From NCBI GenBank assembly GCA_016195565.1, contig JACPZK010000005.1, positions 1-64,000 on the forward strand: 64,000 bases of DNA. Direction: 5' to 3'. This document shows, one piece after another, positions 22,541-34,367 of the stretch. The notes under the pieces are model-generated. The model searched no databases. It was not told where the DNA came from and saw nothing but the letters and a program-made list of their open reading frames with translations. Positions within the stretch are counted from its first letter, which is position 1, and every line of letters begins with the position of its first letter. A program made the position numbers and the translations under genes. The stretch comes from Nitrospirota bacterium. GTDB lineage: Bacteria; Nitrospirota; Thermodesulfovibrionia; Thermodesulfovibrionales; UBA1546.

Positions 22541-22750
22541 ATGCAGACAGAAGAAAAGGTTAGAAAACAGTTTATCCTCGACCCTGCCAAAATCGCAATG
22601 GTTAAAAAAATTACCCGCGCAGCAACCGAGACAGAGGCGGTTAATAGGGCGTTGGACATGGTTATTGCAAATGAACAAATCGAAAAAACACTTATGGCGG
22701 TAAGAGGCAAGGGGAAGATAAAGGATGTCTACGGAAGAATATCCGTTTAA
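22541..22750 (+). CDS. VapB-type antitoxin
   Basis: A 69-residue protein with a short basic start, a central ATETEAVNRALDMVIANEQI helix pattern and a charged C-terminus, as in small VapB/ribbon-helix-helix antitoxins that are followed by PIN toxins. A GGAGG site precedes the ATG. Its last 26 bases overlap vapC. It resembles the antitoxin at 50001-50198 (ILGAKTETEAVETAL versus ITRAATETEAVNRAL), so the two pairs are related. Confidence 0.75.
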   Translation: MQTEEKVRKQFILDPAKIAMVKKITRAATETEAVNRALDMVIANEQIEKTLMAVRGKGKIKDVYGRISV

Positions 22751-23159
22751 AGCTCTCTGCGACACTTCGGTATACATTCCTTTTATCAACAAGGGAATTA
22801 TCCATCCTGTTTTTGCCGAATCTGCCCGGCCCGTGCTCTACATGAGCCTGGTAGTTCTTGCGGAATTGTACGCCGGAAGCCATGACGCTAATTCTATAAA
22901 ACTTGCCGACAGGCTATACAATACTTTTCTGGGCGTTGGAAGGCTTATTATCCCCAATGATGAAGACTGGAGGAAGACGGGGATGGTTATGGCAAAGCTC
23001 GGCCAGAAATACGGATTTGAAGCAAAATATATCTCAAAAATTCAAAACGACGTCTTGATTGCATGTTCAGTGCGTAGAATCGGCGCATTCGTTGTCACGC
23101 AGAATAAAATTGATTTTCAGAGAATAAAAGAGTTCATAGATTTTCGGATTTATGGGTAA
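22725..23159 (+). CDS. PIN-domain ribonuclease toxin (VapC)
   Basis: A 144-residue PIN-domain protein. The acidic residues expected for Mg2+ binding are present: Asp in ALCDTSVYIPF, Glu in VLAELYAGS, Asp in IQNDVLIACS and Asp in VVTQNKIDF. VapC toxins cut tRNA or rRNA; the target is unknown. It overlaps its antitoxin gene. It ends a few bases before the decayed cas3 5' fragment and so forms the left edge of the CRISPR island. Confidence 0.85.
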   Translation: MSTEEYPFKALCDTSVYIPFINKGIIHPVFAESARPVLYMSLVVLAELYAGSHDANSIKLADRLYNTFLGVGRLIIPNDEDWRKTGMVMAKLGQKYGFEAKYISKIQNDVLIACSVRRIGAFVVTQNKIDFQRIKEFIDFRIYG

Positions 23160-23161
23160 AG

Positions 23162-23382
23162 GCAGTGCATAAGTTCTATGCCCATAGCGTCGAAGGGAAG
23201 CCGAAGAGCGAATGGCAGGGGCTTGAGGAGCATTTGCTGAATGCGGAGGGGACTGTCCCAGATTTACGGACGGAGCAAAGCGTAGTCGTAGAATCGGGAC
23301 TGTCCCCGGCTAAAAGGAATGTGGCGAAGTTTGCCGCCGAATTCGGCTGTGGGCGATTGGGCATATCTGGCGGGGTTGTGGC
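23162..23382 (+). pseudogene. Decayed 5' fragment of a divergent cas3
   Basis: The fragment reads HKFYAHSVEGKPKSEWQGL and EEHLLN, matching the start of the intact Cas3 at 24250 (EFYAHSIKGKPTREWQGL, GEHLLN), then after a foreign stretch and a frameshift GDWAYLAGLWHD, matching residues about 42-53 of Cas3. It stops exactly at the HD motif. An inserted segment with two GGGACTGTCCC copies breaks it. Nucleotide similarity is clearly incomplete (many silent and non-silent changes), so it comes from a different cas3 allele and is not a recent tandem duplicate. Confidence 0.85.
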
Positions 23383-23481
23383 ATGATAAAAATTGACTTG
23401 CCTTGAAATTGCTTTAAGGGTAGACTATTTTAAATTGTTTGAGACTGAATGATTGTATTCGGCAGGTGAGGAGGAAACTTT

Positions 23482-23811
23482 ATGAATGATAGAGATAGGG
23501 CTTTGATATTGGATATTAAAAGAAGGCTTTCATCGGATTTGGAGGGTCATGTAAAACGCCTCATAGTTTTTGGTTCGAGAGCAAAAGGTGAAGCAGCAGA
23601 GGATTCTGATCTTGATGTAATTGCATTGGTTGATGAAAAAAATCCGGAGATTGAAAAAGGTCTTGAAGATATAGCGTATCAGATTATGTGGGATCATGAC
23701 TTCAGGCCAATCATATCACTCAAGGTGCTCTCTGAAGCTCAATTCTATAATGCTCTCAATAGAGGTTTTTCCTTTTACCGGCATGTTGAAAAAGAAGGTG
23801 TTTCAGTATGA
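23482..23811 (+). CDS. MNT-type nucleotidyltransferase antitoxin (MntA-like)
   Basis: A 109-residue minimal nucleotidyltransferase with VFGSRAKGEAAEDSDLDVIAL, the GSx10DxD core (about 32-51), and a third acidic residue in the region after it. In MntA/HepT pairs the MNT protein neutralises the HEPN toxin, in studied cases by AMPylating it. GAGGAGG precedes the ATG. It overlaps the HEPN gene by four bases (ATGA). Confidence 0.88.
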   Translation: MNDRDRALILDIKRRLSSDLEGHVKRLIVFGSRAKGEAAEDSDLDVIALVDEKNPEIEKGLEDIAYQIMWDHDFRPIISLKVLSEAQFYNALNRGFSFYRHVEKEGVSV

Positions 23812-24188
23812 CCGAGGAGGTAAAAAAGCTGGTTGAAAAAGCTGAACATGCACTTGAGGTGGCTGAAAAATTGATGGAGGATGGCTATCCATCTGATGCT
23901 GCAAGCAAAATCTATTATTCAATGTACTATGCAGCGCAGGCGCTTTTAAAATCAGAAGGAATTGATGTTATCAAGCATTCTGCCGTTGAATCAGCATTAG
24001 GGTATCACTTTGCTAAGACTGGAAAGATTGACTCCAAATACCACAGGATGCTTATAGATGCAAGGAAGATTCGTGAGATAGCCGATTATGATATTCAGGA
24101 AGAGATTATTGAGCCGGCTGCATCGCTAAAAATTGAAGAGGGGAAATCTTTTTTAGCTGAAATCAAGAAAATTCTCGGCAGCCCGTAG
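23808..24188 (+). CDS. HEPN-domain toxin (HepT-like)
   Basis: A 126-residue all-helical protein: AEHALEVAEKLMEDGYPSDA, then AASKIYYSMYYAAQALLKSE, typical for HEPN proteins of MNT/HEPN pairs. The segment ARKIREIADYDI takes the place of the Rx4-6H ribonuclease motif; here it is the R...ADY form known in this subgroup. Translation is coupled to the MNT gene. The pair lies between the cas3 relic and the intact cas3. Confidence 0.85.
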   Translation: MTEEVKKLVEKAEHALEVAEKLMEDGYPSDAASKIYYSMYYAAQALLKSEGIDVIKHSAVESALGYHFAKTGKIDSKYHRMLIDARKIREIADYDIQEEIIEPAASLKIEEGKSFLAEIKKILGSP

Positions 24189-24249
24189 CATCAGGCTGTC
24201 TATTTTTAAAGTCTGCTGTTTAGGAAGTAGATTCCGTTCTTATTGAAAT

Positions 24250-26463
24250 ATGCCTCACGAATTCTATGCACATAGTATTAAGGGGAAGCCGACAAGAGAA
24301 TGGCAGGGGCTTGGGGAGCACTTGCTGAATGTCGCTGAGCTTGCAAAGAAGTTCGGGGATGAATTCGGCTCAGGAGATTGGGCGTATCTGGCGGGGTTGT
24401 GGCATGATATGGGAAAGTATTCGGAGGATTTTCAGAAGATGCTTCTTGCCTCTGCCGATGCGCATATTGAGACAAAGCCAGGTCGGGTTGATCATTCAAC
24501 AGCAGGGGCAATTCATGCCATTGAAAAATTAAAAATACCGGGCAGAATATTAGGCTATCTTATCGCAGGACACCATGCGGGGTTGGCAGATTGGCAAACT
24601 GATATGGCTGGGAGAAAGAGCCTTGTACAACGATTGCAGAACATTAATCTTTTTCATAAGCTACCCTTTTCAGACATCCCTCATCATATCATTGAGCAAT
24701 CCCGTCCAAAACAAAAATTTATAACCAAAGAAGGTCATGCCCTGTGGATAAGGATGCTTTATTCTTGCCTTGTTGATGCTGACTTTCTTGATACAGAGGC
24801 GTTTCTTGAGCCGGGAAAAACAAAGACACGAAAAGGCTACCCCTCATTGAAAGAGCTTCTGTCGTTCTTTGAATCTTATATGGCTTACAAACAGACGAAT
24901 GCAGTTGATACTCTTGTTAACAAAAAGCGGGCGGAGATACTCAAACAATGTATCTTAAACTCAGCGCATGAACCTGCGATATTTACCCTGACGGTTCCAA
25001 CTGGCGGTGGCAAAACGCTTTCGTCAATGGCATTTGCGCTGAATCATGCCGTGAAGTACGGTATGGAGCGAGTAATTTATGTCATACCCTATACAAGCAT
25101 CATTGAGCAGACAGCTGAACAATTCAGGGAAATTTTCAAAGATGCTGTTATCGAGCATCACAGCAATGTTGATGTCTCTGACGAGAGCAGTGAGACCGCA
25201 AGAAGCAGGCTTGCCTGTGAAAACTGGGACGCTTCGGTGATCGTAACAACGTCAGTTCAATTTTTTGAATCCCTTTTTGCCAATCGTTCAAGCCGCTGTC
25301 GGAAGCTACACAATATTGCAAACACCGTTGTGGTTTTAGATGAAGTGCAGCTTCTGCCGCCTGAATATCTTAACCCGATTCTCCATACAATGAAAGAGCT
25401 TCATCAGAATTACAATGTGACATTTGTCCTATGCACGGCGACACAGCCTGCATTCACGCCTCACAAATCGAATGACTATGAATTTAAGGGGCTACCTGAC
25501 ACCGTTGAGATAATGGAAAAGCCCCTGTCTCTTTACAAATCATTCAAACGGGTTGAGGTGCAGGTGCCAAACGATTTCTTAAAACCTTGCTTATGGGAAG
25601 ACCTCGCATCTGAGCTTACTCAACATCCGTCAGTTTTGTGCATTGTGAACAGGCGAGACGATTGCCGGACACTTTACGAGTTGATGCCTGAGAAAGGAGA
25701 AAAAACCTTTCACCTCTCCGCTCTTATGTGCGGCGAGCATCGTTCGAAAGTAATTAAGCAAATAAAACAGAGACTTAAAGATAAAATCCTGACCCGTGTC
25801 ATAAGCACACAGCTTGTTGAGGCAGGCGTTGATCTTGATTTTCCAGTCGTCTACCGCGCCCTTGCAGGGCTTGACTCGCTTGCACAAGCTGCGGGCAGAT
25901 GCAACAGGGAAGGACTCCTTGAGAGCGGGCATGTAGTGGTTTTTATTCCACCGAGTAAATTCCCTGTTGGTTACTTGAGACAGGCAGGAGAAATCGGCAG
26001 AAGACTGCTTGCTGAAAAAGCAGACGACTTACTTTCACCAAAAAGGTTTGAGCAATTTTTTAAAGAATTGTACTGGCTTCAAGGGACTAACCTGGATGAG
26101 CATGAAATTATGAAAGACCTTGCTATAGACAAGGAGTTGCGATTCAGTTTTCTCTCGGCAGCTCAGAAATTCAAGATGATTGACGATAAGCAATATGCTC
26201 CTGTAATTGTATGTTACGAAGAAGGGGAGAGATTGATTGAGATGCTGAAAAAACTTAGTCCCGAAAGATGGCTGATGCGTAAGCTTCAAAGATATGTTGT
26301 GAATCTGCCTAAATACGGTCATGCAAAACTTTACAAAGATGGCGCTATTATTGAAGCTCATCCGGGTATATATATTCAGGTAAATAGGGCAATGTATCAT
26401 CCTGAGCTTGGGTTTTGTCCTGATAAGTCTATGATCTACGAGCCAGATGATTTAATGTGTTAA
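24250..26463 (+). CDS. cas3: CRISPR-associated helicase/nuclease Cas3, type I-C
   Basis: Single-strand DNA nuclease-translocase recruited by Cascade. The HD nuclease domain has EHLLN, LWHDMGKYSEDF (His-Asp about 52-53), DHSTAGA and AGHHAGLADW. The SF2 helicase has Walker A TVPTGGGKTLSSMAFALNHA (about 249), motif II DEVQLLPPE (about 364) and motif VI QAAGRCNREG (about 546). The 737 residues and HD-helicase order match type I-C. No ribosome site is visible before ATG 24250. All motifs are intact, so interference is plausible. A relic of another cas3 start lies 1.1 kb upstream. Confidence 0.96.
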   Translation: MPHEFYAHSIKGKPTREWQGLGEHLLNVAELAKKFGDEFGSGDWAYLAGLWHDMGKYSEDFQKMLLASADAHIETKPGRVDHSTAGAIHAIEKLKIPGRILGYLIAGHHAGLADWQTDMAGRKSLVQRLQNINLFHKLPFSDIPHHIIEQSRPKQKFITKEGHALWIRMLYSCLVDADFLDTEAFLEPGKTKTRKGYPSLKELLSFFESYMAYKQTNAVDTLVNKKRAEILKQCILNSAHEPAIFTLTVPTGGGKTLSSMAFALNHAVKYGMERVIYVIPYTSIIEQTAEQFREIFKDAVIEHHSNVDVSDESSETARSRLACENWDASVIVTTSVQFFESLFANRSSRCRKLHNIANTVVVLDEVQLLPPEYLNPILHTMKELHQNYNVTFVLCTATQPAFTPHKSNDYEFKGLPDTVEIMEKPLSLYKSFKRVEVQVPNDFLKPCLWEDLASELTQHPSVLCIVNRRDDCRTLYELMPEKGEKTFHLSALMCGEHRSKVIKQIKQRLKDKILTRVISTQLVEAGVDLDFPVVYRALAGLDSLAQAAGRCNREGLLESGHVVVFIPPSKFPVGYLRQAGEIGRRLLAEKADDLLSPKRFEQFFKELYWLQGTNLDEHEIMKDLAIDKELRFSFLSAAQKFKMIDDKQYAPVIVCYEEGERLIEMLKKLSPERWLMRKLQRYVVNLPKYGHAKLYKDGAIIEAHPGIYIQVNRAMYHPELGFCPDKSMIYEPDDLMC

Positions 26464-26486
26464 CCATTTACTGAAAGGAGGGGAAT

Positions 26487-27128
26487 ATGAGGGATTCACC
26501 TGTTACAAGTAATGCCTTTCGTCTAAAAGTATGGGGCAGGAATGCTTGCTTCACGCGGCCAGAGATGAAAGTGGAGCGCGTTTCATATGACGTTATGACG
26601 CCATCTGCTGCACGAGGAATACTTGAAGCGATTCTCTGGAAGCCTGCCATTCTCTGGAAGGTGACGCAGATAGATGTGCTGAATCCGATTAAGTGGGAAT
26701 CGGTGCGCAGAAATGAGGTCGGCGCTGTCATGTCTCCGCGAACAAACGGATTGTTTATCGAGGATCAGCGACAGCAACGAGCAGGGTTATTTCTCAGGGA
26801 TGTTGCTTATACAATTCATGCGCATTTTGAGCTTACTGATAAGGCAGAGAACGAGGATACAGTTGTTAAGTTTACAGAGATGTTTCTCCGCAGGGCTGAA
26901 AAAGGGCAGTGCTTTCAACGTCCTTATCTTGGCTGCCGTGAGTTTGCTGGTGAGTTTGAAGTGTTTACAAACGGTAAGAAATTGCCAGAACCAATTGCCG
27001 AAACCCGCGACCTCGGCTGGATGCTCTACGATATGGATTTCGAAGGCAAAGAGCCTATGCCACGCTTCTTCAAGGCAAGCCTCGACAACGGACGCATGAT
27101 GACTGATGAAAGGGTGGTGAGACAGTGA
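26487..27128 (+). CDS. cas5c: CRISPR-associated protein Cas5c
   Basis: In type I-C, Cas5c replaces Cas6: it cuts pre-crRNA at the repeat stem and holds the 5' handle in Cascade. The family start (FRLKVWGRNACFTRPEMKVE), SYDVMTPSAARGILEAI and the FIEDQRQQRAGLFLRDVAY segment are clear. Length 213 is normal. AAAGGAGGGG precedes the ATG. The stop overlaps the GTG start of cas8c (GTGA). Confidence 0.93.
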   Translation: MRDSPVTSNAFRLKVWGRNACFTRPEMKVERVSYDVMTPSAARGILEAILWKPAILWKVTQIDVLNPIKWESVRRNEVGAVMSPRTNGLFIEDQRQQRAGLFLRDVAYTIHAHFELTDKAENEDTVVKFTEMFLRRAEKGQCFQRPYLGCREFAGEFEVFTNGKKLPEPIAETRDLGWMLYDMDFEGKEPMPRFFKASLDNGRMMTDERVVRQ

Positions 27129-28852
27129 TTCTACAGGCATTGACAAAGTATTATGAGCGAATTCCAAATGTCGCTCAAGAAGGATATCAGAAGCAGGCCA
27201 TTTCGTTTCTCATCATCATTAAAAAAAATGGGGATTTTGTCGGATTACAGGATTTGAGAGAAGGAGAAGGTAAAAAGAAAAAAGGGCAATTCCGCTTAGT
27301 GCCGAAGGCTGTTAAGCGAACTATTAAGTCAGCAGCAAACCTTTTATGGGATAATCCTGCATATGTCTTGGGACGACCTAAGCCTGACAAGAGAAAGGAT
27401 ATGAAGGCTTTGCTCAAGAGGGCAGAAGAACAGCGAGCTCTTTTTCTTGAGCATATCAAAAACACCTTTTGTTGCAATCATGTTGACGAGGGAGTTGCTG
27501 CCGTAATCCGGTTTCTTGATACGAAAAACTATAAAAAACTTTTTGATCATCCACTATGGAAAGATATTGAGGAAAGCGGAGCAAATATAACATTTCAAAT
27601 AGAAGGCGATACGGAACTTGTTTGCCAGCGTGAAGCTGTGCGAAATGCTATCAGTACCTCTTCAAGCACTGATCGTTCCGAATCTCAAATCTGTCTTATA
27701 ACCGGCAAACAGGATAGTCCAGCCCGGCTTCACACTGCCATTAAAGGCGTCTGGGGTGCACAGCCATCTGGTGCGAATATTGTAGCGTTCAACCTCGATG
27801 CTTTCAGATCGTTCAACAAAGAACAAGGCTATAATGCGCCTGTCGGCAAGAAAGCAGAATTCGCTTACACAACTGCATTAAATACTTTGCTTGCAAAGGG
27901 CTCACGACAGCGCATTCAGGTAGGTGATGCAAGCACTGTTTTTTGGGCCGAGAGAAAGCATGACATTGAAGACTGGTTTGCAGATATTTTTGGAGAACCT
28001 GCTAAAGGAGATAGTGAGCAGGACTATGCAGCCATCAAGGCTTTGTTCAAGTCGCCTGAAACAGGAGCGAAACCTCTACTTGATAACAATATTAAATTTC
28101 ATGTTCTTGGCCTGTCTCCAAATGCATCACGGATTGCTATCCGTTTCTGGTATGCAGGAACCATCACTGAAGTTGAAGAAAATATTAAGCAGCACTTCAA
28201 GGATATTGCCATTGACCACGCTCCACGCCAGCCTGAATATTTATCACTTTTCCGATTACTTGTTTCAACAGCTTTACAGGGGAAGGCAGATAACATCCAG
28301 CCCAATCTATCAGGCGATTTCATGAAGGCTGTACTTACTGGTACGCCGTATCCAACAACGCTTTTATCAGCGGCAATACGGCGGATAAAGGCTGAGCGTG
28401 AAGTTACATATCCACGAGTATCGCTTATTAAAGCCATACTTGTAAGAAATGCACGATTTTATGAAATAAACCTAAAGGAGGAGGTAGGTATGTCATTGGA
28501 TACAAGCAACACTAACATAGGCTATCGTCTTGGGCGACTCTTTGCCGTTCTCGAAAAGATTCAGGAAGAGGCAAGTCCTGGAATCAACGCCACTATTAGA
28601 GACAGGTTTTATGGTTCGGCATCAAGCGTCCCTGTTACCGTCTTTTCGCATCTTATGAAACTGAAGAATCATCATATTGCAAAGCTTGAAAGCAAGGGAC
28701 GTACAGTAAATCTGGAAAAGATAATAGGCGAGATAGTGGATGATATAAAGGACTTCCCCGGCCATCTGAGTCTCGATGATCAGGGGAGGTTTGCAGTTGG
28801 CTATTATCACCAGAGACAGGATTTTTTTAAGAAGAAGGATATAAAGGAGTAG
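27125..28852 (+). CDS. cas8c: CRISPR-associated protein Cas8c (Csd1)
   Basis: Large subunit of type I-C Cascade, which recognises the PAM. Family features are GLQDLREGEGKKKKGQFRLV near the start, CLITGKQDSPARLHTAIKGV, VAFNLDAFRSFNKEQGYNAP, FHVLGLSPNASRIAIRFWY and DTSNTNIGYRLGRLFAVLEK. The last part doubles as the small subunit (Cas11c) in type I-C. A GGAGGAGGT site lies just before ATG 28490 (MSLDTSNTNIGYRLG), the expected internal start for Cas11c. Length 575 is usual. GTG start coupled to cas5c. Confidence 0.94.
   Translation: MILQALTKYYERIPNVAQEGYQKQAISFLIIIKKNGDFVGLQDLREGEGKKKKGQFRLVPKAVKRTIKSAANLLWDNPAYVLGRPKPDKRKDMKALLKRAEEQRALFLEHIKNTFCCNHVDEGVAAVIRFLDTKNYKKLFDHPLWKDIEESGANITFQIEGDTELVCQREAVRNAISTSSSTDRSESQICLITGKQDSPARLHTAIKGVWGAQPSGANIVAFNLDAFRSFNKEQGYNAPVGKKAEFAYTTALNTLLAKGSRQRIQVGDASTVFWAERKHDIEDWFADIFGEPAKGDSEQDYAAIKALFKSPETGAKPLLDNNIKFHVLGLSPNASRIAIRFWYAGTITEVEENIKQHFKDIAIDHAPRQPEYLSLFRLLVSTALQGKADNIQPNLSGDFMKAVLTGTPYPTTLLSAAIRRIKAEREVTYPRVSLIKAILVRNARFYEINLKEEVGMSLDTSNTNIGYRLGRLFAVLEKIQEEASPGINATIRDRFYGSASSVPVTVFSHLMKLKNHHIAKLESKGRTVNLEKIIGEIVDDIKDFPGHLSLDDQGRFAVGYYHQRQDFFKKKDIKE
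28476..28492 (+). promoter_or_regulatory. Internal ribosome binding site and ATG within cas8c (putative Cas11c start)
   Basis: AAAGGAGGAGGTAGGT immediately precedes ATG 28490, in frame with cas8c. In studied type I-C systems an internal start in cas8c yields the small subunit Cas11c; the strong site here fits that and would give a protein of about 120 residues. Confidence 0.7.
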
Positions 28853-28867
28853 AAAGTGAACTGGATT

Positions 28868-28890
28868 CCTGCTTTCGCAGGAATGACAAA
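28868..28890. repeat. Dispersed CTGGATTCC repeat inside the cas operon
   Basis: CTGGATTCCTGCTTTCGCAG and GGAATGAC form a hairpin (ATTCCTGC/GCAGGAAT) of the same family as at 11949-12020 and 39913-40014. It lies in the 61-base spacer between cas8c and cas7c. Confidence 0.55.
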
Positions 28891-28913
28891 AAAATCAAAG
28901 GAGGAATAAAAAA

Positions 28914-29819
28914 ATGAGCAACACAATCAACAACCGCTATGATTTTGTATTATTCTTTGATGTAAAGGACGGCAATCCCAACGGAGACCCGGACGCAGGC
29001 AACCTGCCGCGCGTTGATCCTGAAACAGGACACGGGCTTGTTACGGACGTTTGTTTAAAAAGGAAAGTAAGAAATTATGTGCAGATGTCAAATGGGAATA
29101 AAGATGGATACGATATTTTTGTGAAAGAAAAAGCGATACTCAACAAATATATTAGAGAAGGATATGAGACATTGGGCATTAATCTTAACGAACCACCCAC
29201 AGACAAAAAAGATGGAGAGAAGCGTAAAACCAAAGGTGGAGCTCAAAGCAGCGAAATTGAGAAAGGACGGCAGTATATGTGTAAGACTTACTATGATGTC
29301 CGAACTTTCGGGGCCGTTATGAGTACAGGTCCTAATGCTGGACAAGTTAGAGGTCCGATACAAATGACTTTTGCGCGCTCCGTTGATCAAGTAGTTCCAC
29401 TTGAACATTCATTGACTGTTTGCGCTGCCCGTTCTGAGGATAAATCAATCGAAGAACAAATTGGCATTCAAGGGCGTAAATTCACAATCCCTTATGGACT
29501 TTATCGTTGCCACGGATTTATCTCTGCACCATTTGCAACGCAGACAGGATTTAACGAAGATGATTTGAATCTATTCTGGAAGGCTCTTCTTGAAATGTTT
29601 GAGCATGACCGATCTGCAGCGCGGGGACAAATGGCCACTCGGAAGCTCATCATTTTCAAGCACGATTCAGCAATGGGTAATCATCCGTCTCACGTGCTGT
29701 TCGACATGGTCAAGGTCAAATCCGAAAACAAGCCTGCGCGTGATTTCAGTGATTACACTGTCACAGTACCTACTCAGGCAAATATGCTGCAGGGTGTAAC
29801 TTTGGAGGTCGAGCTTTAG
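28914..29819 (+). CDS. cas7c: CRISPR-associated protein Cas7c (Csd2)
   Basis: Backbone subunit of type I-C Cascade that polymerises along the spacer part of crRNA. NRYDFVLFFDVKDGNPNGDP with DAGNLPRVDPETGHGLVTDV is the signature N-terminus; GAVMSTGPNAGQVRGPIQM and FARSVDQVVPLEHS follow. Length 301 is usual. AAGGAGG precedes the ATG. cas4 begins directly after its stop. Confidence 0.96.
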   Translation: MSNTINNRYDFVLFFDVKDGNPNGDPDAGNLPRVDPETGHGLVTDVCLKRKVRNYVQMSNGNKDGYDIFVKEKAILNKYIREGYETLGINLNEPPTDKKDGEKRKTKGGAQSSEIEKGRQYMCKTYYDVRTFGAVMSTGPNAGQVRGPIQMTFARSVDQVVPLEHSLTVCAARSEDKSIEEQIGIQGRKFTIPYGLYRCHGFISAPFATQTGFNEDDLNLFWKALLEMFEHDRSAARGQMATRKLIIFKHDSAMGNHPSHVLFDMVKVKSENKPARDFSDYTVTVPTQANMLQGVTLEVEL

Positions 29820-30212
29820 TTGTACACTGAAGACGATTTGATTCAACTCTCTTCCTTGCAGCACTTTTTTCCTGTTGAATACAAGCGCGGAAAACCTAAG
29901 ATGGATGATTGCGATAAGGTTCAGCTTTGCGCTCAGGCAATCTGTCTTGAGGAAATGCTCAATGTTGAAATTCCGGAAGGCGCGCTTTTTTACGGCCAGA
30001 CTCACCACAGGCATGATGTGATTTTTGACAAGGCATTGCGTTCGGAAACAGAAGACGCTGCGAAAAAAGTTCATGAGCTTATTGAATCAGGGATTACGCC
30101 GAAAGCTGAATACTCAAAAAAGTGCAAGAAGTGTTCTTTGGTAGAGTTGTGCCTGCCTAATGCAAGCAGTAAGGCGAGTAATTATCTGATGAAGGCGATG
30201 GCGGAGGAATAA
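29820..30212 (+). CDS. cas4: Cas4 with large internal deletion (type I-C), probably inactive
   Basis: Cas4 normally trims prespacers and selects PAM together with Cas1-Cas2, using a RecB-like nuclease and a four-Cys iron-sulfur cluster. Here YTEDDLIQLSSLQHF, the family N-terminus, runs directly into FPVEYKRGKPK. In full-length I-C Cas4 about 80 residues lie between these, carrying the first cluster Cys (FCxRQW), the motif-I His and the metal-binding Asp. The rest, QLCAQAICLEEML and the CKKCSLVELC cysteines, is intact and in frame; total 130 residues versus about 210. A TTG start follows the cas7c stop directly, with GGAGG 12 bases upstream. Three of four Cys remain. Confidence 0.88.
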   Translation: MYTEDDLIQLSSLQHFFPVEYKRGKPKMDDCDKVQLCAQAICLEEMLNVEIPEGALFYGQTHHRHDVIFDKALRSETEDAAKKVHELIESGITPKAEYSKKCKKCSLVELCLPNASSKASNYLMKAMAEE

Positions 30213-30221
30213 AGGAAGCCT

Positions 30222-31280
30222 ATGAAGAAAAAGAAAGAACAAATTCCAGTTAAAAGTGATTTGATTCTGTATCAGACAGAGGATGGCAAAACTAATATCG
30301 AGGTGAGATTGCAGGACGAAACCGTCTGGATGAGCCAATTGGCAATGGCGGAACTGTTTCAGACAACTGTCCCTAACATCAATATTCATTTAAACAATGT
30401 GTATGACGAAGGAGAGCTTTCAGAGATGGCAACTATTAAGGATTACTTAATAGTTCGGCATGAGGGTTCCCGGCAGGTTCGCCGCAATGTAAGGCACTAC
30501 AACCTTGAAGCTATTGTCGCGGTCGGCTACCGGGTGAAATCACTTCGAGGCACTCAGTTTCGCAGGTGGGCAACAGAGCGGTTGAATGAGTATCTCATCA
30601 AGGGCTTCACCATGGACGATGAACGGCTGAAAGAAGTCAATAATATCGGCTCTGATTACTTTGATGAGATGCTTGAGCGGATAAGGGACATCCGGTCAAG
30701 CGAAAAGCGTTTTTATCAAAAAATCCGCGACATCTATAAACTTGCGGTTGATTACGATCCGAATGCAGAAGAAACCCTGGAATTTTTTAGCATTGTCCAG
30801 AACAAGCTGCACTTTGCAGTATCAGGAAAGACTGCTGCTGAAATAATCTCCGAACGGGCGGATGCATCGAAGCCCAATATGGGATTGACTTCATGGAAGG
30901 GGGCAAAAGTCCGCAGGGGGGATGTGACCATTGCCAAAAACTATCTGAATCATAATGAAATCGAGCATCTCAACCGCATTGTTGAAATGTACCTGAATTA
31001 TGCCGAAGATCAGGCCAAACGCCGCAGGCAGGTTTTCATGCGCGACTGGCGGAAAAAGCTGGATGCCTTCCTGAAATTTAACGAACGGGATATTCTGACT
31101 AACGCAGGCAAGGTGACCAAAGAAGTAGCGAATAAGCTGGCGCTTGATCATTATGAAGCATTTAACCGCAACCGGCTTGCAATAGAGGCGAAGGAGGAAG
31201 CTCTTGCTGACGATGAAGAACTGAAAAAGATAGAAGCGGCTATCGAAAGAAAAAAGAGACAGAGACATAAAAAGACATGA
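30222..31280 (+). CDS. RhuM-family protein embedded in the cas operon
   Basis: Full-length (352 residues) RhuM-family protein. The N-terminal domain has ETVWMSQLAMAELFQTTVPN, RNVRHYNLEAIVAVGYRVKS and RGTQFRRWATERLNEYLIKG, a winged-helix/BRO-N-like DNA-binding pattern. The C-terminal helical domain has TSWKGAKVRRGDVTIAKNYL, YLNYAEDQAKRRR and KLDAFLKFNERDILTNAGKV. The family was named for a Salmonella pathogenicity-island gene; its biochemical role is unknown. It begins nine bases after cas4 and its TGA overlaps the cas1 ATG (ATGA), so it is translated as part of the operon. It is not a usual I-C component. Confidence 0.92.
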   Translation: MKKKKEQIPVKSDLILYQTEDGKTNIEVRLQDETVWMSQLAMAELFQTTVPNINIHLNNVYDEGELSEMATIKDYLIVRHEGSRQVRRNVRHYNLEAIVAVGYRVKSLRGTQFRRWATERLNEYLIKGFTMDDERLKEVNNIGSDYFDEMLERIRDIRSSEKRFYQKIRDIYKLAVDYDPNAEETLEFFSIVQNKLHFAVSGKTAAEIISERADASKPNMGLTSWKGAKVRRGDVTIAKNYLNHNEIEHLNRIVEMYLNYAEDQAKRRRQVFMRDWRKKLDAFLKFNERDILTNAGKVTKEVANKLALDHYEAFNRNRLAIEAKEEALADDEELKKIEAAIERKKRQRHKKT

Positions 31281-32308
31281 AAAGACACCTTAATACATTG
31301 TTCGTGACAACTCAGGGCGCGTATCTTTCAAAAGAAGGAGAGACAGTCATTGTCAAGGTTGATGGAGAAGTGGCCTTGCGCTTGCCTGTTCATACCCTCG
31401 GCGGCATTGTCTGTTTCGGACAGGTCAGTTGCAGCCCGTATCTTATGGGCTTTTGTGCAGAGCGCGGAGTGTCAGTTAGTTTCATGACTGAAAACGGCAG
31501 CTTCCTCGCAAAGGTTCAGGGGCCTGTGTCAGGCAATGTACTTCTGAGGCGCGAACAATACAGGAAGGCTGATGATCAGAAATTCTCTGCTGATATGGCA
31601 ACTGCTTTTCTTACAGGAAAAATTACCAACAGCAGGACGGTCTTGCAGAGAGCGCTAAGGGATCATTCAGAGAAAATCGAATGTTCTGAACTTGAAGATG
31701 CAGTTCAAAAACTCAACAGCTCTTTAAGGAGGCTACAGTCTGATTCAGATCTCGATTCTTTGCGCGGGATTGAGGGCGACTCTGCAAATGCATATTTCAG
31801 CGTCTTCGACCACCTGATTACAACTCAAAAGGAAAACTTCTTTTTCAAGGAGCGTAACAGGCGTCCGCCTCTTGATAATGTAAACTGTCTGCTTTCTTTT
31901 CTTTATGTGATTCTGATGCACGATATAAGGTCTGCGCTTGAAGCAGTCGGGCTGGACCCTGCTGTGGGCTTTTTGCACAGAGACCGGCCGGGGCGCTATA
32001 GTCTTGCCTTGGATTTGATGGAAGAGTTCCGTCCGTTTTTTGCAGACCGTTTGGCTCTTTCATTGATTAATCTCTGTCAGGTGCAGGACAAGGGGTTTAA
32101 TAAAAAAGAATCAGGCTCAGTGTGGATGGATGACGACACAAGAAAGACAGTGCTGGTAACTTACCAGAAGCGTAAGCAGGATGAGATGATGCATCCTTTT
32201 TTGAAAGAGAAGGTTACTGTCGGGCTGTTATTTCATACGCAGGCATTGCTTCTGGCGCGCTATCTGCGCGGGGATATGGATGCATATCCGCCGTTTATAT
32301 GGAAGTGA
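31277..32308 (+). CDS. cas1: CRISPR integrase Cas1, type I-C
   Basis: Catalytic subunit of the Cas1-Cas2 spacer integrase. The 343-residue protein has an N-terminal beta domain (TLFVTTQGAYLSKEGETVIV) and the helical catalytic domain with IEGDSANAYF (metal-binding Glu), GFLHRDRPGRYSLALDLMEE (His and Asp) and FRPFFADRLAL. All three catalytic positions appear present. Its ATG lies in the stop codon of the RhuM gene. Confidence 0.95.
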   Translation: MKRHLNTLFVTTQGAYLSKEGETVIVKVDGEVALRLPVHTLGGIVCFGQVSCSPYLMGFCAERGVSVSFMTENGSFLAKVQGPVSGNVLLRREQYRKADDQKFSADMATAFLTGKITNSRTVLQRALRDHSEKIECSELEDAVQKLNSSLRRLQSDSDLDSLRGIEGDSANAYFSVFDHLITTQKENFFFKERNRRPPLDNVNCLLSFLYVILMHDIRSALEAVGLDPAVGFLHRDRPGRYSLALDLMEEFRPFFADRLALSLINLCQVQDKGFNKKESGSVWMDDDTRKTVLVTYQKRKQDEMMHPFLKEKVTVGLLFHTQALLLARYLRGDMDAYPPFIWK

Positions 32309-32317
32309 GGAGAAATT

Positions 32318-32608
32318 ATGTTTATGATTGTAAGTTATGATGTGTCAACAGTTGAGAAGGGCGGGCAGCGCCGTCTGCGAAGGGTAGCGCGTGCGTGTCT
32401 TGACTATGGACAGAGGGTGCAGAATTCTATCTTTGAATGCATTGTTGACCCTGCGCAATGGACAACGCTCAGGTCGAGGCTCGTTAAGGAGATTGACCCT
32501 GCAAAAGACAGTCTGCGGTTTTATTATCTCGGCTCTAACTGGAAACACAGGGTTGAGCATGTGGGTGCAAAGGCAACGATTGAACAGGATGGGCCATTAA
32601 TAATTTGA
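32318..32608 (+). CDS. cas2: CRISPR-associated Cas2
   Basis: Small ferredoxin-fold partner of Cas1 (96 residues). It starts MFMIVSYDVSTVEKGGQRRL, contains RVQNSIFECIVDPAQW, and ends with FYYLGSNWKHRVEHVG, all typical of type I-C. GAGGAG precedes the ATG. The CRISPR leader begins directly after its stop. Confidence 0.95.
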   Translation: MFMIVSYDVSTVEKGGQRRLRRVARACLDYGQRVQNSIFECIVDPAQWTTLRSRLVKEIDPAKDSLRFYYLGSNWKHRVEHVGAKATIEQDGPLII

Positions 32609-33436
<828 letters not shown>

Positions 33437-33547: not shown

Positions 33548-33578
33548 TAAATCTTGTATTATATAAATAAATCTTGTA
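33548..33578 (+). promoter_or_regulatory. Direct repeats upstream of abrB-PIN pair, likely operator
   Basis: TAAATCTTGTA at 33548-33558 and again at 33568-33578, 20 bases apart (about two helical turns), just before the ribosome site of the antitoxin gene. Likely an antitoxin binding site; inferred. Confidence 0.45.
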
Positions 33579-33601
33579 AGTTATTATTGGAGGTGATGAG
33601 G

Positions 33602-33829
33602 ATGGAAAGCACGGTTACAGTGAGGGGGCAGACGGCGATCCCCGTGGCGATACGCAGAAAGTATAACATCAAGCCAAAGACAAAACTTGAGTGGATAGAT
33701 GACGGACATACCATAACTGTCTTGCCTATTCCCAAAGACCCCATTAAGGCGCTCAGGGGCAAATTCAGGGACACGGATCTTCTGCGGTCGCTTCTGAAAT
33801 CAAGGAAAGAGGAACGAGAACGTGTCTAA
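33602..33829 (+). CDS. AbrB/SpoVT-family antitoxin
   Basis: A 75-residue swapped-hairpin DNA-binding antitoxin: MESTVTVRGQTAIPVAIRRK and LEWIDDGHTITVLPI, then a basic C-terminal tail that would bind the toxin. GGAGGTG at 33589-33595 supports ATG 33602 over ATG 33596. It overlaps the PIN toxin gene by eight bases. Confidence 0.85.
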   Translation: MESTVTVRGQTAIPVAIRRKYNIKPKTKLEWIDDGHTITVLPIPKDPIKALRGKFRDTDLLRSLLKSRKEERERV

Positions 33830-34232
33830 GAGTTATGTGCTGGACACCTCTGCTATTTTCACTTTTACAAAGGCAGAGGAGGGCAGTGACGTGGTTGAAG
33901 ATATTCTGAATATGGCCAAGAAGGGGAAAGATTCGGTTTATCTCTCGTTCGTCAGCTTTATGGAATTGTACTATGTCACATGGCAGGAAAAAAGTGAAGA
34001 TGCTGCCAGGGAGTTGATTATACTGGTTAAGTCGCTGCCTGTTCACAGAGTAGATTCAAATGAAAGGCTCACTTTGTCTGCAGGCAGGCTTAAGGCAAAT
34101 CACAGGCTTTCGGTGGCTGATGCTTTTATAGCGGCAACAGCAATAGAAAAAGGCGCTGTCCTGGTTCACAAAGACCCCGAGCTTGAAGTTATATCAAAAT
34201 ACACAGAAATCATAGAGTTGCCGTATAAATAA
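33822..34232 (+). CDS. PIN-domain ribonuclease toxin (VapC family)
   Basis: A 136-residue PIN protein with a GTG start. Acidic active-site residues: Asp in VLDTSAIFTF, Glu in SFMELYYVTW, Asp in LSVADAFIAATA and Asp in VLVHKDPELE. Partner of the AbrB-type antitoxin just upstream. It lies between the CRISPR array and a lone divergent CRISPR repeat, so the module may have been inserted into or beside an older, longer array. Confidence 0.87.
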   Translation: MSKSYVLDTSAIFTFTKAEEGSDVVEDILNMAKKGKDSVYLSFVSFMELYYVTWQEKSEDAARELIILVKSLPVHRVDSNERLTLSAGRLKANHRLSVADAFIAATAIEKGAVLVHKDPELEVISKYTEIIELPYK

Positions 34233-34335
34233 CAAGGGGAGTGAATTTGTTGGTTGTTAGTCCTTATCATTTTGTCGATTTAGTTGAGTCCTCCTCAGAA
34301 AAGAAAATCTGGACACTTCGACAATGCCAGCGTAT

Positions 34336-34367
34336 GTCGCTCCTCGCGCGGGAGCGTGGATTGAAAC
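34336..34367 (+). repeat. Orphan divergent CRISPR repeat
   Basis: A single 32-base unit, GTCGCTCC at the start and GTGGATTGAAAC at the end, in the same orientation as the array 0.9 kb upstream. It differs from the array repeat at four positions (6, 9, 14, 18). Positions 6 and 18 pair in the stem and have changed together from G-C to T-A, and position 9 becomes a U-G wobble in RNA, so the hairpin is preserved. No second copy follows. Confidence 0.88.

Follow-up and report, generated by a model that had tools for sequence, protein, structure and literature searches.

Why should a gene of the RhuM family stand among the genes with which a CRISPR (clustered regularly interspaced short palindromic repeats) system records DNA? 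The question is raised by a stretch of 64,000 nucleotides (nt) from contig JACPZK010000005.1 (assembly GCA_016195565.1) of a Nitrospirota bacterium, called the window below, in which the list of open reading frames (ORFs) and family profiles give a type I-C operon in the order cas3-cas5-cas8c-cas7-cas4-rhuM-cas1-cas2-array. The arrangement and coordinates described in a first-pass annotation of this DNA are confirmed by the ORFs, the sequence and the family profiles: rhuM starts 9 nt past the cas4 stop and its end shares the letters ATGA with the start of cas1, a position which permits translational coupling to cas1. The gene is intact, kept by purifying selection and recurrent beside adaptation genes. 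We give about an even chance to the reading that it is a self-contained DNA-binding defence cassette which has settled in the adaptation half of the I-C operon.

Recurrence of rhuM beside adaptation genes

The genome collection was searched for RhuM loci, and the best 80 of 314 were probed with the Cas proteins of the window. The order cas4-rhuM-cas1 is found in ten operons of one Cas1 clade, namely the window, L157 (=L003), L085 (=L005), L153, L021 (=L154), L022, L024 (=L155), L025 (=L156), L026 and L027; L022, from a record titled Planctomycetota, is possibly a misbinned contig. With nine relatives sharing the order, its recurrence is established, the one-off insertion that the first-pass annotation had considered (no other genome with this order) is refuted, and chance insertion can be rejected. 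A longer series occurs in L023, where cas4 is followed by a Bro-N-like gene (recognised by eye), a YhcG-type nuclease gene, rhuM, a further ORF and cas1. The order rhuM-cas4-cas1 is found in five loci of other groups, L193-L196 and the Elusimicrobia-titled L070, and these loci in other phyla lead us to discard a restriction to one lineage. In L070 (1574-3561) cas1 is interrupted by transposase-like sequence, recognised by eye. The effector module beside the rhuM of L024, the only one scanned, differs from that of the window, yet it is also I-C (PADLOC Cas8c, E 4e-145), and the idea of two effector subtypes was therefore dropped; rhuM stands beside adaptation genes across several phyla, together with either of two divergent I-C effector modules.

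The association was also counted in three samples, the genomes of which are not independent. Among 295 genomes of the window's phylum, 47 have Cas1c over the cut-off and 78 have any RhuM match; 38 RhuM matches are strong, and 6 RhuMs, the window's being one, lie directly upstream of Cas1c, against a naive expectation of 0.011 within 2.5 kilobases (kb) of a Cas1c locus. Of 345 genomes in the Geotalea phylum, 78 have Cas1c and 73 have RhuM (E up to 1e-60); 3 RhuMs are adjacent, with 0.034 expected. The phylum of a Bacteroidetes-titled record (296 genomes) has 138 with Cas1, 57 with RhuM (E up to 1e-40) and at least 1 adjacent, a lower bound among the Cas1 matches listed, with 0.07 expected on an estimate of 165 Cas1 places; the E-value cuts in these last two surveys drop partial RhuMs. 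When the expectation is raised twenty-fold to allow for clustering in defence islands, the first sample is still well above chance (P 1e-7), that of Geotalea is marginal (P 0.03), and the third is not above chance.

Selection and exchange of the predicted DNA-reading segment

Purifying selection on RhuM is strong: when CRISPR RhuMs are compared with the window's over residues 98-318, the ratio of nonsynonymous to synonymous substitution (dN/dS) is 0.03-0.07 in seven pairs. A tree of residues 100-318 of 70 RhuMs has a starred set, type A, of eight CRISPR RhuMs, including that of the window, and one not CRISPR-linked, and a second starred set, type B, of L003, L085 and L153 with two non-CRISPR-linked RhuMs of the window's order or family. 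The CRISPR label changes 4 times on this tree, with 2 changes forced. The term "not CRISPR-linked" means that no match to a window Cas protein was found nearby, often with just 1.5 kb per side searched, and for L131-L152 that no adjacency appeared in the place lists of the window's phylum survey. A tree of 100 rows with 16 CRISPR RhuMs shows 6 label changes, 3 of them forced, and a shuffled mean of 15.1; this tree no longer has the small starred set that surrounded type A, and its smallest starred set with L023 has 29 rows, 9 of which are CRISPR-linked.

The two types alternate beside closely related cas1 genes. The Cas1 of L157 shares 98% identity with that of the window, and the Cas1 of L085 shares 96%, while the window RhuM is of type A and theirs are of type B, with a RhuM identity of 57-60%; the same pattern is seen for L026 and L027 (type A) against L153 (type B), which are joined by short Cas1 branches of 0.008-0.033. 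Since the RhuM types differ beside nearly identical cas1, we read the switch as a whole-gene replacement in place.

A finer exchange is visible within type A. The mean proportion of nonsynonymous differences (pN) among its eight CRISPR RhuMs (28 pairs) is 0.056 in the backbone, residues 98-318, and 0.30 in residues 47-97, the recognition helix and wing of a predicted winged helix; the first 46 residues are also above the backbone, at 0.08-0.15. In L022, L024, L025, L026 and L027, DNA identity to the window is 70-90% up to codon 40 but just 46-65% over codons 41-100; by codons 101-120 it is back at 73-85%, and over codons 121-140 it reaches 81-91%. L021 and L023, which share the window's segment type, show no such drop. 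The segment comes in discrete types, VPNIN with IKDYLIV, KQNIS with VKEYLTT and VRTIN with IRKFRI. Judged by these alignments, the putative recognition helix and wing is exchanged as a block, and repeatedly so. Four of the five strongest covarying pairs within residues 20-319 join positions 50 and 54 of the recognition helix to positions 72 and 77 of the first wing strand, as expected of a recognition unit which moves as a block; the pairs are uncorrected for relatedness, and packing inside the domain, or relatedness, could be behind part of the signal. Partial RhuM matches in Escherichia coli cover 7-12% of the query and resemble another RhuM, and they were unusable as a within-species test of segment exchange.

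The cas4-cas1 gap as a site of alternating cassettes

The Cas1 tree comprises a clade of 27 rows and 11 outside rows, L171 and L172 having been left out; L178 is without upstream sequence, which leaves 26 clade rows with a readable gap between cas4 and cas1. The gap holds rhuM in 10, other cassettes in 5 and nothing in 11. Because four rhuM rows (L022, L026, L027, L157) entered through RhuM searches, 10 of 26 is not a frequency; the 22 rows found through Cas1 divide into 6 with rhuM, 5 with other cassettes and 11 empty. The other cassettes are a PIN_3 gene with an AbrB-like partner (the partner by eye) in L174, DUF433 with a DUF5615/PIN-like gene in L175 and, alike by eye, in L186, and Bro-N in L176 and in L179, an operon without cas4. 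They agree with the first-pass suggestion that RhuM could be an extra defence or toxin protein. The rhuM label changes 4 times on the Cas1 tree in the group table, and 5 times in a with/without count which includes L023. Bro-N genes before cas1, with no cas4 found, were recorded at L179:2540-3493 (minus strand) and, by similarity only, at L191:9571-10398.

In 9 of the 11 empty gaps, cas4 and cas1 overlap by 4 nt, and the cassette overlaps cas1 by 4 nt in 8 of the 15 filled ones. Inspection by eye of the effector genes, in those clade operons for which they were read, showed no cassette between them. The gap between the effector genes and cas4 holds a shared ORF in several clade operons (23S_rRNA_IVP-like, below the cut-off, in L183, the sole one scanned), and a GIY-YIG gene (L181) or another ORF (L025) is found between cas1 and cas2. 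Published passages on CRISPR-coupled toxins describe one toxin being replaced by another in CRISPR loci (PMC3506569), and toxin or dormancy genes in defence operons replacing one another are a likeness to the gap seen here; in those passages, however, the predicted toxin-like genes are mostly in or near type III loci, and here they occupy the I-C cas4-cas1 gap.

Such a gap raises the alternative that rhuM is a hitchhiking or addictive cassette of no benefit to CRISPR. Junctions with an ATGA overlap would tolerate an insertion once coupling is restored, and rhuM, Bro-N and toxin-antitoxin genes would exploit this. It fits that several unrelated cassettes share one gap, that 12 of the 15 cassettes end in a gene overlapping cas1 or at most 1 nt away from it, and that RhuM types are swapped beside near-identical cas1. 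A neutral passenger, however, should decay, and what is observed is strong purifying selection and a repeated association in several phyla. Addiction in turn needs a partner gene; with only 9 nt before rhuM and an overlap after it, the test for a type II toxin-antitoxin system found no adjacent small partner between cas4 and cas1 in the window, a partner elsewhere being possible. We regard this alternative as rather unlikely.

RhuM away from cas genes and its predicted fold

The window RhuM matches PF13310 with E 2e-115 (385 bits against a curated cut-off of 33.7, positions 1-248 of 252) and PADLOC PDC-S05, a single-gene phage-defence candidate, with E 4e-150 (positions 3-345 of 346). The match is full length, and the gene is embedded in a defence operon, just as its relatives are in type I restriction operons, with the difference that the host operon here is a CRISPR I-C adaptation module. 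PDC candidates come from guilt-by-embedding and are mostly unvalidated, according to published passages (PMC12988326). Away from cas genes, rhuM is often found in type I restriction operons (81 of the 117 neighbours found were scanned, giving 16 N6_Mtase, 16 Methylase_S and 7 ResIII), and it has a same-strand overlap of 4 nt with 12 of 59 upstream and 11 of 58 downstream neighbours, on both sides in 6 loci. The single E. coli genome inspected has RhuM by itself next to tRNA-Sec, and so RhuM need not work with cas genes. A RhuM match is present in 1514 of 5426 E. coli genomes, covering at least 80% of the query in 839, and viral contigs contributed 5 RhuM loci of 53-56% identity.

Excerpts of the literature propose RhuM as a toxin in restriction operons (PMC3710099) and report in-vitro binding of LexA at a site of a death-on-curing protein named rhuM (PMC3998124). 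The one precedent found for RhuM in a CRISPR locus is the type II-C system of Bacteroides fragilis, where the passages available place RhuM-domain ORFs between cas1 and cas9 (PMC5704556). There as here RhuM-domain genes adjoin cas1 inside a CRISPR locus; the B. fragilis loci differ in being type II-C, cas4 is not named in those passages, and they are likened by published description only. RhuM in a type I-C operon is not reported in the passages of the literature matches listed, mostly outside subscription journals.

An AlphaFold2 model built from 70 sequences (mean predicted local distance difference test, pLDDT, 78; predicted template modelling score, pTM, 0.48) has a winged helix at residues 13-137 with a hairpin at 72-93, a helical domain at 147-300 and an additional long C-terminal helix at 300-351. 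Among solved structures the whole model is matched best by 8u0g, the DdrC protein of Deinococcus radiodurans (Z 8.5, 205 residues, root-mean-square deviation, rmsd, 6.3), the next unrelated row scoring 6.5. DdrC binds and senses DNA breaks. Modelled alone, the C-terminal part reaches pLDDT 81 and pTM 0.71 and is again best matched to DdrC (Z 7.6-7.7, 96-112 residues, rmsd 2.4-2.9; next row 4.0). RhuM would share with DdrC (PDB 8u0g, 7udi, 7qvb) a two-part fold of winged helix and helical domain, and would differ from it in the extra C-terminal helix and in having no sequence match; that the predicted fold is nearest to DdrC in both halves is a good lead, not proof.

The predicted DdrC-like fold is among the points in favour of RhuM as an accessory adaptation factor, a binder of DNA ends or prespacers that would help Cas4-Cas1-Cas2 to capture or hold DNA. 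RhuM also stays with the adaptation genes, before or after cas4, even where the neighbouring I-C effector module is a different one, and 8 of the 9 rows of the starred set holding the window RhuM in the 70-RhuM tree are CRISPR-linked. Against this, RhuM is also found away from cas genes, 11 of the 26 clade operons have no cassette at all, toxin-like modules occupy the same gap, the window RhuM sits beside a broken Cas4, and 20 of the 29 rows in the smallest starred set with L023 of the 100-row tree are not CRISPR-linked. We consider such a helper role unlikely. Quite improbable, in our judgement, is that RhuM is a DdrC-like reader of DNA ends or sequence working as an I-C adaptation subunit, with a swappable segment that biases which DNA Cas4-Cas1-Cas2 record or protect; if this were true, RhuM would be a changeable pre-filter for CRISPR memory.

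State of Cas4

Cas4 is crippled in the window, as the first-pass annotation had it. It matches just positions 91-208 of a profile of 229 positions, and alignment to seven relatives, five of them with rhuM, shows that a single internal deletion, in frame, has removed what lay between LSSLQHF and FPVEYKRG. Lost with it are the FCxRQ cysteine region, the MHDK histidine and the GKAD aspartate, which we take to be catalytic or cluster residues and which the aligned relatives have kept; the EYKRG motif and the C-terminal cysteines are retained; the intact Cas4 of an I-C adaptation module is thus absent from the window. By ORF length Cas4 has 207-238 amino acids (aa) in the nine rhuM-bearing clade relatives, L023 and L193-L196, and cas4 of L070 reads through in full; the motifs were checked by alignment in five rhuM-bearing relatives, the others being judged by ORF length. 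Co-loss of Cas4 motifs with rhuM, which had been proposed, is not seen in the relatives, those aligned keeping their motifs, and Cas4 loss does not accompany RhuM gain, the one exception being L078, which is decayed and has a broken rhuM, 48 remaining codons of cas1 and no cas4 match. That RhuM replaces or modulates the Cas4 processing step, as first suggested, is therefore very improbable, and replacement was rejected: the truncated Cas4 of the window, L078 and the Bro-N operons without cas4 (L179, L191) would fit, but Cas4 is full length beside rhuM in the nine clade relatives, L023, L070 and L193-L196, and RhuM matches no nuclease family in Pfam or NCBIfam.

Features of the operon and its surroundings

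The operon is assigned to type I-C by its cas8c/csd1 large subunit (family match E 2e-176) together with cas5c, cas7c, cas3 and an I-C Cas1 (TIGR03640, 529 bits); the window Cas4 is not intact, and the subtype assignment rests on cas8c. A promoter and terminator scan of 23100-33000 was uninformative, with 14 sites where shuffled sequence gave 14.4 and 10 where it gave 8.9.

Table 1. Positions of the I-C operon genes, RhuM regions and CRISPR array in the window
Feature	Position	Strand	Basis
cas3 (I-C)	24250..26463	+	PADLOC Cas3c E 2e-225
cas5c	26487..27128	+	PADLOC Cas5c E 9e-75
cas8c/csd1	27125..28852	+	Pfam PF09709 E 2e-185
cas7c	28914..29819	+	PADLOC Cas7c E 1e-109
cas4, in-frame internal deletion, 130 aa, TTG start	29820..30212	+	
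rhuM, 352 aa	30222..31280	+	PF13310 / PDC-S05
RhuM predicted winged-helix N-terminal domain, residues 13-137	30258..30632	+	AlphaFold2 model
RhuM putatively exchanged, hypervariable recognition helix and wing, residues 47-97	30360..30512	+	
RhuM predicted helical domain, DdrC-like, residues 147-300	30660..31121	+	
cas1 (I-C), start overlapping rhuM stop (ATGA)	31277..32308	+	
cas2	32318..32608	+	
CRISPR array, ten 32-nt repeats	32792..33419	+	

A partial second cas3 5' end lies upstream of the full cas3 (23165-23386, with 23482-24188), and the two are separated by an MntA-like gene (below the curated cut-off) and a HEPN-like gene (by eye). Orphan cas3 N-terminal stretches are likewise found upstream of the operon in L022, L024, L025, L027, L085, L153, L176, L184 and L186, some before a different I-C effector module, as though effector modules had been swapped and a scar left. 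Further upstream, at 22541-23159, lies a possible further toxin-antitoxin pair, made up of a small gene and one resembling VapC (below the curated cut-off). A MazE/AbrB-like and PIN gene pair directly follows the array (33554-34367), and after it comes a lone repeat (34336-34367) slightly different in sequence from those of the array, perhaps the remnant of an older array.

Conclusions

The reading which we prefer remains that of a defence cassette. RhuM would bind a preferred sequence or damaged DNA on an invader and, once bound, would block the invading DNA, or stop the cell, in infections that CRISPR has failed to clear. Made together with Cas1-Cas2, it would form a second line of defence on the same message, and a swap of the DNA-reading segment would alter what is recognised. 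The recurrence beside the recording genes, together with a DNA-reading part that appears to be repeatedly swapped, suggests a second, co-produced defence protein and not a substitute for a CRISPR part. Of the first-pass interpretation, the order stands as real and recurrent and the notion of an extra defence protein or toxin fits the cassettes of the gap, while replacement of the Cas4 step does not hold.

Several points weigh against the defence cassette. Hitchhiking could account for the persistence of RhuM. Nothing fills the gap in 11 of 26 clade operons, Cas1c loci are often without RhuM (adjacent in 6 of 47 Cas1c genomes of the window's phylum and 3 of 78 of that of Geotalea), and the starred branches of the Cas1 tree alone force just 1 change of the rhuM label. 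The likeness to DdrC has a Foldseek E of 1.6e-3 for the whole model, from a pTM of 0.48; Z 7-8 is a usual best score without a clear match, more so for helical models; the 47 Foldseek rows obtained with the C-terminal model do not include DdrC, nor did a profile search of PDB sequences with RhuM match it at up to E 1. The literature passages on the family describe no biochemical activity of RhuM. By sequence, RhuM may do no more than share a message with Cas1-Cas2 or may aid adaptation.

The RhuM family is widespread: it carries a virulence annotation and is present in many E. coli genomes. Its linkage to CRISPR adaptation, a DdrC-like predicted fold and the apparent segment exchange turn an opaque family into a source of testable hypotheses, among them that RhuM may be a sequence-reading, possibly break-sensing, defence protein. 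The cas4-cas1 gap is occupied in turn by toxin-like, Bro-N and RhuM cassettes, and in this one operon family the long-discussed link between immunity and dormancy becomes open to test.

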